64,000 bases of DNA from Halobaculum sp. MBLA0143 (lineage in GTDB: Archaea > Halobacteriota > Halobacteria > Halobacteriales > Haloferacaceae). The position numbers and the translations under genes are program-made. Position 1 is the stretch's first letter. Each line of letters opens with the position of its first letter. A model generated the notes under the pieces. That model worked only from the letters and a program-made list of their open reading frames with translations, was not told the origin of the DNA and ran no database searches. The stretch lies in assembly GCF_041361465.1 (NCBI RefSeq), contig NZ_JBGKAC010000001.1:806001-870000 (forward strand), read 5' to 3'. Positions 639 through 35,061 of this stretch are shown in pieces.

Positions 639-734
639 GGCCCCGTCTCGGGGGCCCGCGCCCGTGAAGGGTCCGGTCCGTCACGGGGGCTCGGGCACCG
701 ACGGTCACAAGCCCACCGCGCCCCTCGACGGAGT

Positions 735-1400
735 ATGGTGCGACGGTCCGGGCGCTTCCGCGTCTACCGCGTCGTGGAGTCGGTGCCACACTACAACCTC
801 CAACGGGTCGACGAGCCCCGGCTGTACACCGTCTACAGCTCCGGCTACGACCCGGACCGGCAGGCGGCCGTCGACGACCTCCGGACGGGAACGCTCGTGG
901 ACGCGACGCTGACGGGCGACCCGGACGACGAGACGGAGCCGTGGCGGCTGGCGGCCGTCGAGCACGACGAGGCGGCCAGCGTCGAGACGGCGTTCGCCGT
1001 CGACGTCGACCCACCGGCGGTCGCCGTCGACGCCTGGGGGTCCGAGCCCGGGGCGACTGAGCCGATCTGTCGGACGCTGACGGAGGACGGGGAGCCGGTC
1101 GGCGCCTGTTGTGTCCAGCCCCGCGAGCCGTTGCCCAACGACGCGTTCGTCCCGAACGTGCTGACGGGGCTGCTCCCGTTGGAGTCGGAGCTGACGGCCG
1201 TCCCCGGCGTCGACGAACCGGCCGCGGAGGCGGTGTTTCTCGACCCGGACCCGCCGTCGGCGACGAGCTACGACGCCCCGTTCGGGGTGCTGTTGTTGTT
1301 CACCGCGGCCGCGACGGAACTGCCCGACCGGTTCCGGGAACGGTACGACCTCCCGCGCGGGAGCGACACTCGGCCGGCGTTCGACCCGTACGCGCCCTGA
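735..1400 (+). CDS. conserved haloarchaeal protein of unknown function
   Basis: A 221-residue acidic soluble protein with no signal peptide or membrane segment. The ATG at 735 is preferred because upstream in-frame sequence is arginine-rich and unlike the rest. Recognisable features are an N-terminal GRFRVYRVV strand, a segment VYSSGYDP near residue 35, and a C-terminal LLLFTAAATELPDRFRERYD helix. From memory it resembles the haloarchaeal DUF6663 group, which is unverified. No catalytic motif is visible. Confidence 0.7.
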   Translation: MVRRSGRFRVYRVVESVPHYNLQRVDEPRLYTVYSSGYDPDRQAAVDDLRTGTLVDATLTGDPDDETEPWRLAAVEHDEAASVETAFAVDVDPPAVAVDAWGSEPGATEPICRTLTEDGEPVGACCVQPREPLPNDAFVPNVLTGLLPLESELTAVPGVDEPAAEAVFLDPDPPSATSYDAPFGVLLLFTAAATELPDRFRERYDLPRGSDTRPAFDPYAP

Positions 1401-1415
1401 CCCGCGTTTCGACCG

Positions 1416-1424
1416 ACTTATTCC
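1416..1424 (+). promoter_or_regulatory. TATA box of the CopD-like gene
   Basis: The A+T element ACTTATTCC stands about 27 bp before the ATG at 1447. That is the spacing expected for an archaeal TATA box driving a leaderless transcript. Confidence 0.5.
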
Positions 1425-1446
1425 CGCGACGACACACCCCAACGGC

Positions 1447-1905
1447 ATGAGCATCACGACGACGGTCGCGTACGCGCTCCACACGGTGTTCGCAGGGGTG
1501 TGGACCGGCGCGGTCGTGTTCACGACGTGGAAGCTCCTGCCGTTGGCGGCCGACAGCGACCTCTCGCCGGCCGTGCTCCGAGGAGCCGCCGGCGGGCTGT
1601 CGGTGTTCTCGCGGACGAGCGCGGTGGTGTTGCCGGCGACGGGGTTGTGGATGATCTGGACGCAGTACGGCGGGCTCTCCGGGCTGACCGTCCCGCCGCG
1701 GGGCCACGCCGTCCTGACGATGGTCGTCCTCTGGCTCCTGATGACCGGGATGACGGAGGCGGGCGCGGCGCGCATCCGCGAGGCGGCGGACGCGGGGAAG
1801 GTGCGGACCGCGGCCCGCGAGTCCGGGCGGTTCCTGAAGGCCGCGAGCGCAGCCGGCGTCGTCACCCTCCTCCTCGGCGGCTACCTCGCGGCGCCGCCGC
1901 TGTAA
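1447..1905 (+). CDS. CopD-like four-helix membrane protein
   Basis: 152 residues with four predicted membrane helices (about 5-25, 45-75, 85-105, 130-150). The first helix contains ALHTVFAGVWTGAVVF, with the His-Gly/Trp pattern seen in CopD and related copper-resistance or haem-linked membrane domains. The C-terminal pair is separated by a basic cytoplasmic loop. Function as a copper or haem membrane protein is inferred from this resemblance only. A TATA box lies 27 bp upstream, so the transcript should start at the ATG. Confidence 0.65.
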   Translation: MSITTTVAYALHTVFAGVWTGAVVFTTWKLLPLAADSDLSPAVLRGAAGGLSVFSRTSAVVLPATGLWMIWTQYGGLSGLTVPPRGHAVLTMVVLWLLMTGMTEAGAARIREAADAGKVRTAARESGRFLKAASAAGVVTLLLGGYLAAPPL

Positions 1906-1947
1906 CTCGTCGCCACGTTCACCACGGGGGGGCGCGAACGCCCGGCC

Positions 1948-2619
1948 GTGATCGACGGCGACCAGACGGTAGACGAGAGTCTGGTGCGGTTCGTGCGGGC
2001 GACCGGACCGGACCACACGGACGTGCAAGCCGAGATGGCGGCCCACGCCGAGGCGGAGTCGTTCCCGAACGTCGGCCGCGGAGCGGGGGCCGTGTTGCAG
2101 TTACTGGCCCGGCTCGCGGACGCCGAGACCGTCTTCGAGTTCGGCTCCGGCTTCGGCTACTCCGCCTCCTGGTTCCTCCGGGGCGGCGCGGGCCGGGTCG
2201 TCCTGACGGAGTTCGACGAGGACGAACTCGCGCTCGGTCGGGAGTTCCTGACGGACGCCGGCCTGGCCGAGCGGTGTGTGTTCGAGTCGGGCGACGCGAT
2301 GGAGACGGTGGAACGCTACGGCGGGCCGTTCGACGTCGTGCTCGTCGACCACCAGAAGTCGCGGTACCCCGAGGCGTTCGAGGCGGTGCGGCGGAAGCTG
2401 TCGCCCGGCGGCGTGATCGTCGCCGACAACGTCACCCGCGGCCCGGCGTCGTTCTCGGCCGTGCTCGACCACCTGGAGTCGGGCGAGCCGCTACCGGCCG
2501 ACGACGACCAGACGGCCGGGACCGCCGAGTACCTCGACCGCGTGCGGACGGCCGACGAGTTCGACACGGCCGTGCTCCCGGTCGGCTCCGGGCTGTCCGT
2601 CTCCGTGAAACGGCGGTGA
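1948..2619 (+). CDS. class I SAM-dependent O-methyltransferase
   Basis: 223 residues from a GTG. The SAM site is clear: FEFGSGFGYSA (motif I, about residue 61) and an acidic T-E-F-D-E after the second strand. DVVLVDH and a later VIVADN mark the acidic metal/substrate region of the O-methyltransferase family 3 (catechol-OMT-like). The substrate is unknown. The gene lies between a CopD-like protein and an MFS carrier on the same strand with short gaps, so co-transcription is plausible. Confidence 0.8.
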   Translation: MIDGDQTVDESLVRFVRATGPDHTDVQAEMAAHAEAESFPNVGRGAGAVLQLLARLADAETVFEFGSGFGYSASWFLRGGAGRVVLTEFDEDELALGREFLTDAGLAERCVFESGDAMETVERYGGPFDVVLVDHQKSRYPEAFEAVRRKLSPGGVIVADNVTRGPASFSAVLDHLESGEPLPADDDQTAGTAEYLDRVRTADEFDTAVLPVGSGLSVSVKRR

Positions 2620-2668
2620 CGGCGGTCGATTTCGACACACACTTTCCAGGGGTTCCCGGAGTCACGGT

Positions 2669-3946
2669 GTGACAGACGAGGAGACGCGATCTGACGAGGG
2701 GTCGCCGGGTCGGAGCCAGTTTTGGGCGCTGTACCTCGCTCGCTTCTCCGCGGGCTACGGGCTCGTCACGCTCCTGACGCTCCTGCCGAAGTTCGCAAAC
2801 ACGCTGGACGCCGGCGGCGAGACGATCGGACTGTTCTACACCGGGTTCACCGTCGCCCAGACGCTGGCGGTCGTGCCCCTGGCGTGGGCCGGCGACCGCG
2901 GCGACAAGCGGACGATCCTGTTGGGCTGTCTCGGGCTCGGCGTCGCCACGTACGCGCTGTTCGGGTTCGTCGGCTCGGCCGCGGGGCTGATCGCCGTCCG
3001 AGCGCTCCAGGGCGTCGTCGCAACCGGAATGGGGCTCATGACGTTGTCGCTCGTCGGCGAGCTTGCGACCGCCGACACGCGAGCGAATCGGATCGGGCGA
3101 GCGAACGCGGCGCGGTTCCTGGCGTCCATCGGCGGCGGGCTGTCGGCCGGCTGGCTGTACGACACCTTCGACGGGTTCGAGGCCGTGTTCGGGGTGACGA
3201 CCGCCCTGTTCGTCGTGACGCTCGTCGCGGTCGCGGCGGTGTTGTCCCGAGACGAGACGACGATTCCGGGGTTCCCGTTCCGCGACCTGGCGGTCAACCG
3301 CCGGATCGTCACCCTGACGAGCTTCCGGGCGCAGTACGCCGTCGCGGTGACGCTCGTCCGGTCGTGGGTGCCGTTGTTCGCGGGCGTCGTCGCCGCCAAG
3401 GGTGGACTGGGCTACCCCGCCTTCGCCGTCTCCGTGATCGTCGTCTCGGAGAAGTTCACGAACATGCTGTGTCAGCCGCTGACCGGCCGGCTGTCGGACC
3501 GCAACGGCCGGTCGTTGTTCGTGTTCGCCGGCGGCGGCGCCTACGGACTGGTCGCGCTCGCGGTGCCGTTCACGCCGGCGCTGGGCCAGGTCCTGGGAGC
3601 ACCCGCGAGCCTGCCGGGCGTCGGCGAGGTGTCGGCCGCGTTCCTCCCGCTCGTCGGGCTGAACGCGACGCTCGGCGTCGCAGACAGCTTCCGCGAGCCG
3701 GCGAGCATGGCGTTGTTCGCCGACGAGGGGTCCGACGGCGACGGCGTCGCCTCCAGTTTCGGGATCAGAGAACTCGTCTGGCGCCCGGGGTCCGTGCTCG
3801 CGCCGGTCGCTGGCGGGTGGCTGATGGGCAACGTCGGGATGGACGTGGTCTTCTTCCTCGGCGGGGCGGCAGCGGTCGCGGGTGCGGTGACGTTCGCCGT
3901 CGTCCTCCGGCGGTTCCACGGCGCCGGCGCCCTCCGGGAGTGGTAG
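2669..3946 (+). CDS. major facilitator superfamily transporter
   Basis: 425 residues from a GTG, with about 12 hydrophobic helices in two halves. The loop between helices 2 and 3 carries GDRGDKRTIL, the MFS signature loop (GxxxDRxGRR-like). A matching loop RLSDRNGRS follows helix 8. The N-terminus is short and hydrophilic. The carrier is likely an exporter of small molecules, with unknown substrate. Its end almost touches the stop of the convergent METTL5-like gene at 3947. Confidence 0.85.
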   Translation: MTDEETRSDEGSPGRSQFWALYLARFSAGYGLVTLLTLLPKFANTLDAGGETIGLFYTGFTVAQTLAVVPLAWAGDRGDKRTILLGCLGLGVATYALFGFVGSAAGLIAVRALQGVVATGMGLMTLSLVGELATADTRANRIGRANAARFLASIGGGLSAGWLYDTFDGFEAVFGVTTALFVVTLVAVAAVLSRDETTIPGFPFRDLAVNRRIVTLTSFRAQYAVAVTLVRSWVPLFAGVVAAKGGLGYPAFAVSVIVVSEKFTNMLCQPLTGRLSDRNGRSLFVFAGGGAYGLVALAVPFTPALGQVLGAPASLPGVGEVSAAFLPLVGLNATLGVADSFREPASMALFADEGSDGDGVASSFGIRELVWRPGSVLAPVAGGWLMGNVGMDVVFFLGGAAAVAGAVTFAVVLRRFHGAGALREW

Positions 3947-21404: not shown

Positions 21405-21590
21405 CACACAGATGGACTCGCCGGGAGCCACACTCGCTGCCTCGACAAAACACGCTCACACAGATGGACTCGCCGGGAGTCACACTCGCTACCTCGGCAA
21501 AACACGCTCACACAGATGGACTCGCCGGGAGTCACACTCGCTACCTCGGCAAAACACGCTCACACAGATGGACTCGCCGGGAGTCACGCG
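21405..21590 (+). repeat. 52-bp tandem repeat array derived from the tRNA-Ala 3' end
   Basis: Three full 52-bp units start at 21405, 21457 and 21509, and a fourth partial one at 21561. Each contains TGGACTCGCCGGGA, identical to the last 14 bases of the neighbouring tRNA (read on the plus strand), followed by GTCACACTCGCTACCTCGGC (one variant in unit 1) and AAAACACGCTCACACAGA. Units 2 and 3 appear identical. There are no unique spacers, so this is not CRISPR. Such duplication of a tRNA end is typical of integration-site history. Confidence 0.85.
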
Positions 21591-21650
21591 AGCGACCGCA
21601 GGGAGCGAGCGTGACTACGGCGAGTCCAGTGACTGAGCGAACGAAGTGAG
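21591..21650. repeat. haloarchaeal palindromic intergenic element
   Basis: Between the array and the tRNA lies AGCGAGCGTGACTACGGCGAGTCC followed by GAGCGAACGAAGTGAGCGAA. It contains an inverted copy of the GGACTCGCC core and the GAGCGA/GTGAGCGAA motifs common in haloarchaeal intergenic DNA. In RNA it could fold as a hairpin following the leftward tRNA transcript. Confidence 0.4.
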
Positions 21651-21659
21651 CGAAGGAAC

Positions 21660-21731
21660 TGGACTCGCCGGGATTTGAACCCGGGGCCTTCCCCGTGCCA
21701 GGGGGATGATCTACCACTGATCTACGAGCCC
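21660..21731 (-). tRNA. tRNA-Ala (anticodon GGC)
   Basis: The reverse strand folds as a full cloverleaf. The acceptor is GGGCTCG/CGAGTCC, including the G3-U70 wobble pair that identifies alanine tRNAs. The D arm is GATC/GATC, the anticodon arm TCCCC/GGGGA has loop CTGGCAC (anticodon GGC, reading GCC), and the T arm is CCGGG/CCCGG. The discriminator is A73. CCA is not encoded. A TATA-like GCTTTTGTCC lies about 35-40 bp upstream (near 21767). Its 3' end is the source of the adjacent repeat array. Confidence 0.95.
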
Positions 21732-32994: not shown

Positions 32995-34188
32995 TCACCC
33001 CCCGATCGACGGTCCGGTGAGGAACTCGACGAAGTACATGAACACCCACAGCAGCCCGATCAACACGAAGTAACCGGCGACGAGCGCGGCCGTGCCGACC
33101 GGGTCGTAGTCGTCGTCGACCTCCCGGGCGTGTTCTTCGGCGGGCGCCTCGGTCGCGGTCCCGCCGGCGGCGGCCTCCTTGGCCGCCGAGATGTCCCTGT
33201 ACCCCGAGTACGCCTCACCGCCCAACACCGCGACGGCCGCCACCGTCGTGATCCCGCCGGCGAACAGGGCGAACCACCCCCGGAAGTCGCCCGGCATCGG
33301 GAGGACACCGCCGCCGGAGGCGGCCGCGCTGTCGCCGCCGTCACTGCCACCGCCGCCGATGTCCCCGACGACGATCGCGCCCTTCATCCCGAGTGCCCTG
33401 TGCGGCTGGCAGTAGTACGTGTACACCCCCGGCACCTCGAACGTGTGCGAGAAGGTGTGGCCGGCGTCGGCGACGAGTTCGCTCTCGAAGGTGCCGTCGG
33501 TGCCGACCACGTTGTGAGAGCCACCGTTCCCGTTCCACTCCCAGGCCACGGTCGTGCCCGGGGAGACGCGGACGGCGGCGGGTCCGAACCCGTACGGTCC
33601 GTCCCCGTTCTGGGCGCCGACGGTGACGCTCACGCCGTCGCTGCCGCGTTCGTCGACGGTGCCGTCGTAGTTGGCGACGTCGTCGAACCACCCCTCGTAG
33701 TTCGGCTCGGCGACGCTGCCGCCGGAGCCGTCGCCGGAGCCGACGACGACGGCACCCTTCATCCCGAGCGCCCGGTGTGGCCGACAGTAGTACTCGTACG
33801 TGCCCTCGGCCTCGAACGTGTGCGAGAAGGTGTGGCCGGCGTCGGCGACGAGTTCGCTCTCGAAGGCACCGTCCGTGTGGACGACGTTGTGAGAGCCACC
33901 GTTCCCGTTCCACTCCCAGGTCACGGTCGTCCCTGGGGAGACGCGAACGGCGGCGGGCCCGAACCCGTACGGTCCGTCCCCGTTCTGGACACCGACCTCG
34001 ACCGTGACCTCGTCGCGGCCGGTCCGGTCGGTGACTCCGTCGAAGTTGGAGACACCGTCGAACCACCCCCCGAAGTCCCTGCCGGACTGCGCGGCCGCGG
34101 GCTCGGCGGCACCCAGGAGTGCCACGGAGGCCGTCGCGCCGCCAGCCAGCACCTGCCGGCGGGTCGGTGTGCGTTCGATGCGTGACAT
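32995..34188 (-). CDS. two-domain halocyanin fused to C-terminal membrane helices
   Basis: 397 residues from the ATG at 34186-34188. A twin-arginine signal (TPTRRQVLAGG) leads to two blue-copper domains of about 125 residues. Each has the four copper ligands: H in GGSHNVV, then Cys, His and Met in YYCxPHRALGMKG. The domains are so alike in DNA (about 375-bp period) that a tandem duplication is evident. The C-terminus adds two membrane helices around residues 300-320 and 365-390. It is probably the electron donor built into the ba3 oxidase. Confidence 0.9.
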   Translation of the reverse strand: MSRIERTPTRRQVLAGGATASVALLGAAEPAAAQSGRDFGGWFDGVSNFDGVTDRTGRDEVTVEVGVQNGDGPYGFGPAAVRVSPGTTVTWEWNGNGGSHNVVHTDGAFESELVADAGHTFSHTFEAEGTYEYYCRPHRALGMKGAVVVGSGDGSGGSVAEPNYEGWFDDVANYDGTVDERGSDGVSVTVGAQNGDGPYGFGPAAVRVSPGTTVAWEWNGNGGSHNVVGTDGTFESELVADAGHTFSHTFEVPGVYTYYCQPHRALGMKGAIVVGDIGGGGSDGGDSAAASGGGVLPMPGDFRGWFALFAGGITTVAAVAVLGGEAYSGYRDISAAKEAAAGGTATEAPAEEHAREVDDDYDPVGTAALVAGYFVLIGLLWVFMYFVEFLTGPSIGG

Positions 34189-34347: not shown

Positions 34348-35061
34348 ATGTCGCTCATCGACCGGATCAAGCGCCTCCTCGGAGTGGCGGACGACGACGA
34401 CGACGACGCCAGTGGCGCCGTGACGATCGAACGCGAGCCGGAGAGGGAGACGGCACCCCCGGCAACCGAGACGGAGGCGGCGGTGAAGGGGACGGACGCC
34501 GGCGCGGCCGCCCCCGCCGACGAGCCGGTCGAGACGGACGAGACGAGCGGGGACGACGCCACGACGGACGACGACACGACCGACACCGCGACGGACGACG
34601 ACACGACCGACACCGCGACGGACGACGACACGACCGACACCACGACGGACGACGCCGCGGCGGACGACACGGCTGCAGACGGCGACGAAACTGCTGCCGA
34701 ACCGAGAGACGACGAGGCGGCGGGAGGGGACTCTCCGGAGACAGTCGCAGACGACACCGAGGAGACGGCAGACGACACCGAGGAGACGGCAGACGACACC
34801 GAGGAGACGGCAGACGACACCGAGGAGACGGCAGACGACGCCACGGACACCACGAACGACACCGCGGAGCCGGAGGACGTACCGGTCGCGGAGATTCGCG
34901 GGATCGGTCCGGCGTACTCCGACCGGTTGGCCGACGCGGGCGTGGAGACGGTCGCGGAGCTGGCGGCCACGGACGCCGAGACGGTCGCGTCGGCGACGGA
35001 GCTGTCGGAGAAACGGGTGTCCACGTGGATCCAGCGGGCGGCCGACCACGGGGCGACGTAG
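34348..35061 (+). CDS. helix-hairpin-helix protein with acidic repeat linker
   Basis: 237 residues. A short N-terminal helix ([20 protein letters not shown]) is followed by a 150-residue linker of Asp, Glu, Thr and Ala. The linker contains three 27-bp repeats encoding DDDTTDTAT and four 21-bp repeats encoding DDTEETA. The C-terminal 60 residues form a helix-hairpin-helix pair ([20 protein letters not shown], then [14 protein letters not shown]), like DUF4332/RuvA-type DNA-binding modules. It probably binds DNA non-specifically. Confidence 0.75.
34567..34647 (+). repeat. 27-bp tandem repeat, three copies, in coding sequence
   Basis: Three in-frame copies of a 27-bp unit encoding DDDTTDTAT (last copy DDDTTDTTT). 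The first two copies are identical in DNA, so this is a recent or actively slipping repeat. Confidence 0.85.
34750..34833 (+). repeat. 21-bp tandem repeat, four copies, in coding sequence
   Basis: Four in-frame copies of a 21-bp unit encoding DDTEETA. The copies are identical or nearly so in DNA, which suggests copy number varies among strains. Confidence 0.85.

Follow-up and report, generated by a model that had tools for sequence, protein, structure and literature searches.

Mobile elements enter archaeal genomes mainly at the 3′ ends of tRNA genes. Among described systems, those closest to the locus reported here are the attachment sites of the SNJ2/pleolipovirus type (Harhisp1, HHPV4, HRPV9, Halfgib1 and SNJ2), which belong to the same host order and have as their core the last 13–14 nt of a tRNA (PMC7911831, PMC8371274). 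The att site of SNJ2 consists of 13–14 nt at a tRNA end (PMC8371274), and the provirus Harhisp1 is integrated at tRNA-Ala of Har. hispanica, with excision detected (PMC7911831). In HHPV4, HRPV9 and Halfgib1 we found the exact last 13 nt of tRNA-Met, tRNA-Ile and tRNA-Arg, respectively. These known sites have one att copy per element end.

Outside archaea, the closest arrangement is that at tyrT of E. coli. There, a 178-bp tandem repeat (rtT) lies behind tRNA-Tyr in 3.1 copies at tyrT/tyrV, and we verified by sequence that each unit ends in 19 nt of the tRNA-Tyr 3′ end. The rtT unit encodes a small RNA and an ORF, and its tRNA-end copy includes CCA. Integron cassette arrays, finally, bear a resemblance to the units described below in their imperfect-palindrome hairpins, their fixed orientation and an order that differs between relatives.

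Here, we analyzed a 64-kb stretch of haloarchaeal DNA (the window; C1:806001-870000 of a 3.58-Mb genome) in which a 52-bp tandem array lies behind tRNA-Ala(GGC). The core of this array is letter for letter the attP of Harhisp1. Unlike the known SNJ2-type sites, the locus has a tandem array, an inverted arm and a hairpin, and the genome retains neither an element nor such an integrase. With tyrT the locus is alike in layout, in that a repeat unit that includes the tRNA 3′ end is arrayed in tandem behind the tRNA; however, rtT occupies one locus, whereas hairpin units lie behind a third of the tRNAs here, and the window units have no Rfam match to the rtT small RNA. The integron comparison is a resemblance only. 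Neither an IntI integrase nor ORF-bearing cassettes were found: the units measure 52–205 bp, which leaves no room for a gene of usual size, they have no ORFs, their recombination core is a tRNA end, and the single PF00589 gene of the genome lies beside no array and far from the tRNAs with copies. The window's array is best explained as a member of an order-wide class of tRNA-end units in haloarchaea.

Results

The array behind tRNA-Ala(GGC)

Tandem Repeats Finder placed an array of period 52 at 21405–21587 of the window (3.5 copies, 97% matches). The 14-mer TGGACTCGCCGGGA, the exact 3′ end of tRNA-Ala(GGC), matches the array at 21413, 21465, 21517 and 21569 and the tRNA gene itself at 21660, with no further match in the window. 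The two analyses agree with the original observation of a 52-bp array in which the last 14 bases of the tRNA recur exactly, in four copies.

The tRNA-Ala(GGC) gene is located at 21660–21731 on the minus strand, and its last 13–14 nt (plus-strand 21660–21673) are the copied core. Read in the tRNA sense, it is followed by a 91-bp unit, then by three units of 52 bp with the 14-nt core at the end of each, and by the start of a further unit. The 91-bp unit (unit beta; 21569–21659, minus strand) consists of trailer, inverted tRNA end, hairpin and tRNA-end copy. Its inverted tRNA 3′-end copy, CGGCGAGTCCA on the plus strand, lies at 21618–21628; the inner palindrome GTCACGCGAGCGACCGCAGGGAGCGAGCGTGAC, a motif found again elsewhere in the genome, lies at 21583–21615 (no strand assigned); and copy 1 of the tRNA end (14 nt; 21569–21582, minus strand) closes the unit. 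Next, all on the minus strand, come 52-bp unit 1 (21517–21568; tRNA-end copy 21517–21530), the identical unit 2 (21465–21516; copy 21465–21478), unit 3 with 3 differences (21413–21464; copy 21413–21426) and the first 8 bases of a truncated further unit (21405–21412). The 52-bp units had been taken to adjoin the tRNA; each does include its exact last 14 bases, but unit beta, which is of a different kind, lies in between. The core copies of the window, TCCCGGCGAGTCCA, resemble an SNJ2-type attachment site in that they equal the last 13–14 nt of a tRNA gene and match an attP.

Folding of the trailer RNA in the window is much stronger than that of shuffled sequences (z −5.7), with the tRNA kept intact. 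At the gathering score, none of the Rfam families extends over the units; the only matches were to tRNA, plus a sub-threshold one on the tRNA. The inner palindrome of unit beta (GAGCGACCGCAGGGAGCGAG) is found again in the same genome, at L004 1501–1555 with no tRNA nearby and at L005 1501–1542 behind a tRNA-Arg(CCT) that has tRNA-end copies. A search with a flanking methyltransferase gene returned three named relatives, from a Haloferacaceae MAG, Halorientalis and Halorubrum, which puts the genome among the haloarchaea. Elsewhere in the window, we noted a direct duplication of ≈ 375 bp at 33365–34076 (1.9 copies, 84% matches) and, at 34551–34873, overlapping short-period arrays (27, 21 and 42 bp) rich in GAC triplets that possibly encode an acidic protein linker.

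Copies of tRNA ends in three genomes

The last 13 nt of each tRNA were searched for within 400 nt, allowing at most one mismatch, and the expectation was obtained by swapping tRNAs. In the window's genome, copies of the tRNA's own 3′ end were present downstream of 16 of the 43 tRNAs and upstream of none (0.12 expected). A genome of the same genus (G002) had downstream copies at 9 of 45 tRNAs and no upstream copy, and one of another genus (G033) had them at 26 of 49, with 2 upstream; in three cases of G033, the copy is a duplicate of an almost entire tRNA gene. At orthologous tRNAs, the number of copies mostly differed between the three genomes. Tandem arrays were found in the window's genome at tRNA-Leu(TAG) (3 units, ≈ 90 bp each), tRNA-Arg(TCG) and tRNA-Ala, and in G002 at tRNA-Met (3 × 97 bp).

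The tRNA-Ala(CGC) gene, 255 kb away in the window's genome, is followed by a near-identical 91-bp unit and then by a 52-bp array of its own. The GGC and CGC arrays have the core and ≈ 11 flanking bases in common, and the remainder of the unit is 74% identical; tRNA-Ala(TGC) of this genome showed no copy. Units related to unit beta were found at tRNA-Ala in the window's genome (CGC), G001, G002 and G033, and beside an integrated element in G079. The Ala fillers are 59–74% identical between arrays (shuffled, 49–56%), whereas the core matches at 13–14 of 14 positions, which argues for constraint on the core. In the same genome, ≈ 3 kb of AT-rich DNA (GC 0.39–0.48; L107 ≈ 680–3600, C1 from ≈ 2686280) lies directly behind the tRNA-end copy of tRNA-Pro(TGG), and no second copy of that end was found within 19 kb.

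Boundaries, inverted arms and hairpins

The left edge of the copies in the three genomes was exact at 13–16 nt in 29 of 73 and at 21–24 nt in 41, the remaining 3 being tRNA duplications. The two ranges place the edge on either side of the T-loop. On the right, the match stopped at the last tRNA base in 32 of 73 copies and one base beyond it in 10 more. Edges at such fixed places are not expected from random duplication; they are expected from a process that cuts at fixed sites and leaves a working tRNA.

The direct copy was preceded by the local tRNA end in inverted form (9 or more of 10 nt) in 53 of the 73 units, compared with 3.6% in shuffled spacers, and a hairpin-prone core sits between the two arms. 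Two such cores recur behind many tRNAs in many genera: class I, AGGGAGCG...GCGACCG, and class II, CCTNNCAGTCGC...GTCTGNN. Both arms follow the local tRNA, even where the T-loop is unusual (Gly-TCC and His). We rejected the T-arm as a universal terminal repeat of a transposon because the arms copy the local tRNA, these rare T-loops included, and tRNA-primed reverse transcription because the inverted arm lacks the complement of CCA.

Among 167 genomes of the family, 131 matched the pattern of inverted and direct T-arm, and none matched a control pattern. T-arm palindromes were present in 61 of 72 Halobacteriales genomes versus 2 of 224 other Halobacteriota. Repeat units away from tRNA genes, or an array conserved without variation in all relatives, had been named as observations that would speak against an attachment-site origin. 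We saw neither. Of 70 distinct palindromes, 67 are on the downstream side of a tRNA and none is on the upstream side; for the other 3, no tRNA was detected within 600 bp. The array itself is variable among relatives. Orientation to the tRNA is fixed, at 21:0 for class II and 12:0 for class I (33:0 together); the other 34 are unclassified.

Covariation was analyzed in 42 class II sequences picked by eye, and the outcome applies to that class. In these, 97.8% of the cells pair, 75 cells are changed on both sides (23 after shuffling), and the covariation score is 0.292, compared with 0.081 for shuffled and at most 0.060 for slid alignments. Pair 16–54 is CG in 17 sequences, AU in 15 and GC in 10, with none broken. 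Such compensatory change indicates that pairing is kept, either by selection, at the level of RNA or single-strand DNA, or by copying from arm to arm.

Hairpin cores also differ in their arrangement. At tRNA-Ser(TGA), two cores are common to G177 and G217 in a different order, and G217 has a third unit there, with the same core also found behind tRNA-Pro. On a plasmid of Haloarcula halophila, a class II hairpin interrupts a tRNA-Cys gene as an insert of 69 bp, placed precisely between G53 and T54; the flanks, when joined, give a normal 74-nt tRNA. This insert may be a mobile element or an intron. The split gene belongs to a cluster of 23 tRNA gene predictions that lies close to PolB and to TROVE-domain genes on that plasmid (NZ_CP119561; L312 858–5673).

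Attachment sites, integrases and elements

In Haloarcula virus Harhisp1, the sequence annotated as attP is CCCGGCGAGTCCATG, and this 13-mer, CCCGGCGAGTCCA, is at the same time the core of the window's array. At tRNA-Ala(CGC) of G079, an element of 24.4 kb is bounded by a copy of TGGACTCGCCGGG. The recombinase gene by this element is 73% identical to the Harhisp1 integrase, and the array of tRNA-end copies is displaced to the far side of the element. The array core had been proposed to be an attachment core, traceable through related genomes and through an integrase that uses it: Harhisp1 and the G079 element bear this out, as does the differing copy number among relatives. Several other integrase genes in G079 and G033 adjoin tRNA-end copies, one followed at a distance of 113 bp by a class I unit. 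Segments of ≈ 3.6–4 kb in G030 and G033 have identical units on either side (57/57 and 125/125 bp), which suggests that exchange took place at the unit itself. The G030 segment begins with an ORF resembling the N-terminal part of an integrase, for which no Pfam match was found.

The absence of an integrase from the window, as originally stated, extends to the whole of its genome as far as the SNJ2 type is concerned; G002 and G003 also lack one. No integrase-bearing element bounded by the core was found at the window's tRNA in this genome. A homology search of the Ala array against phages and plasmids returned short matches only. For the class of 21–22 nt, we found no clear viral attP, phage LSV-48N being nearest. 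Viral contigs were also scanned for the palindrome (70), and none of those inspected had a haloarchaeal-type filler. Five viral contigs (L143, L149, L163, L167 and L180) have near-identical, perfect palindromes, GATTTGAACC-GTGGACCTCTGG..., that are not related to the haloarchaeal units.

Discussion

Repeated use of one attachment site, leaving a scar or a landing pad of tandem att copies, was the explanation first offered for the array. The core does fit, with an actual virus and an actual element behind it. An accident confined to a single tRNA is not supported, as the same architecture of inverted arm and hairpin lies behind many different tRNAs across Halobacteriales; nor is this a simple local scar, since the genome lacks a suitable integrase and known attPs lack hairpins. 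Tandem att copies leave the inverted arms, the hairpins and the order-wide spread unexplained.

We tentatively favor, at somewhat less than an even chance, the view that site-specific recombination at tRNA ends gave rise to the units, which were then amplified in tandem. A short non-coding segment would insert at the 3′ end of a tRNA gene, the tRNA staying intact, and a second tRNA-end copy, cut at one edge of the T-loop, would be left downstream. Tyrosine recombinases of mobile elements would create and move such segments; for tRNA-Ala this would be a recombinase of the SNJ2/pleolipovirus type with the last 13 nt as core. Cores lying near each other may then allow unequal exchange between chromosome copies, through the recombinase or ordinary homologous recombination, which would amplify or delete the segment between them and produce tandem arrays, the 52-bp array among them. 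The units would persist as spare attachment sites, possibly to the benefit of host or element. Recombination is supported by the edges at the T-loop sides and the stop at the last tRNA base, by the identity of the Ala core with the Harhisp1 attP and the last 13 nt of tRNAs in other viruses, and by the elements and integrase genes at such sites, with units flanking the G030 and G033 segments. The arrays at tRNA-Leu(TAG), tRNA-Arg(TCG) and tRNA-Ala and that at tRNA-Met of G002 argue for amplification. Against recombination stand the three genomes without an SNJ2-type integrase (the sole PF00589 gene of the window's genome being far off), the missing Pfam match in G030, and viral sequences in which neither the inverted arm and hairpin of most units, nor the palindrome with haloarchaeal filler, nor a clear attP for the class of 21–22 nt was seen. 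Covarying stems and one-way orientation are not expected of scars either.

These last two features are what a hairpin element of its own kind would account for, and such an element is the strongest rival, though we consider it unlikely. It would be a small non-coding haloarchaeal mobile element with one or two hairpins, inserting between tRNA positions 53 and 54 through an enzyme yet to be found and usually carrying the tRNA 3′ end; SNJ2-type viruses would merely share its address, and the 52-bp array would be a decayed unit amplified in tandem. The insert in H. halophila tRNA-Cys lies at exactly this position, though it might be an intron, and the same core behind different tRNAs of one genome and the changed unit order at tRNA-Ser would be natural for a mobile unit. 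However, no enzyme is known for such an insertion, gene conversion between existing units could also spread hairpins, and simple insertion does not account for arms that follow the local tRNA even with an unusual T-loop. This agreement with the local tRNA would instead follow from replication slippage and template switching, in which a local duplication of tRNA end and trailer plus fold-back synthesis would produce the inverted arms with no recombinase; the alternation of direct and inverted copies around hairpins and the uniformity of arrays within a locus, with differences between loci, are consistent with it. We regard this origin as improbable: slippage alone fails on the boundaries, as left edges at T-loop borders in 70 of 73 copies and stops at the last tRNA base are not expected from random duplication, and conserved cores recurring across tRNAs and genera, with palindromes near-absent outside Halobacteriales, also speak against it.

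Alternatively, the units might act as RNA, the trailer of the tRNA transcript folding into hairpins that end in tRNA-like 3′ ends and steer processing, termination or decay. The strong folding of the window's trailer with the tRNA intact, the compensatory change in class II stems and the orientation fixed to the tRNA fit such a role, which nevertheless appears very improbable. Most tRNAs lack units in two of the three surveyed genomes, orthologous tRNAs differ widely, and no Rfam family matches. Moreover, alanine charging needs G3 opposite U70, and the inverted Ala arm puts A there. A wider proposal, which we consider doubtful, is that gene-free hairpin elements insert at the T-loop edge (53|54), restore the 3′ end, build cassette-like arrays behind a large part of the tRNA genes and serve as spare landing sites for integrating viruses and plasmids; they would form an undescribed class. 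A literature search, conducted mostly outside subscription journals, found no paper describing the motif or tRNA-end repeats in haloarchaea.

The compensatory change in the hairpins suggests an as yet undescribed process, involving either recombination or RNA. Should a fifth to a half of the tRNA genes in haloarchaea be accompanied by arrays of their own attachment core, integration could be directed to places other than the tRNA itself, elements could stack and be exchanged, and islands could become enclosed by two cores. In that case, the arrays would preserve a readable history of past integration.
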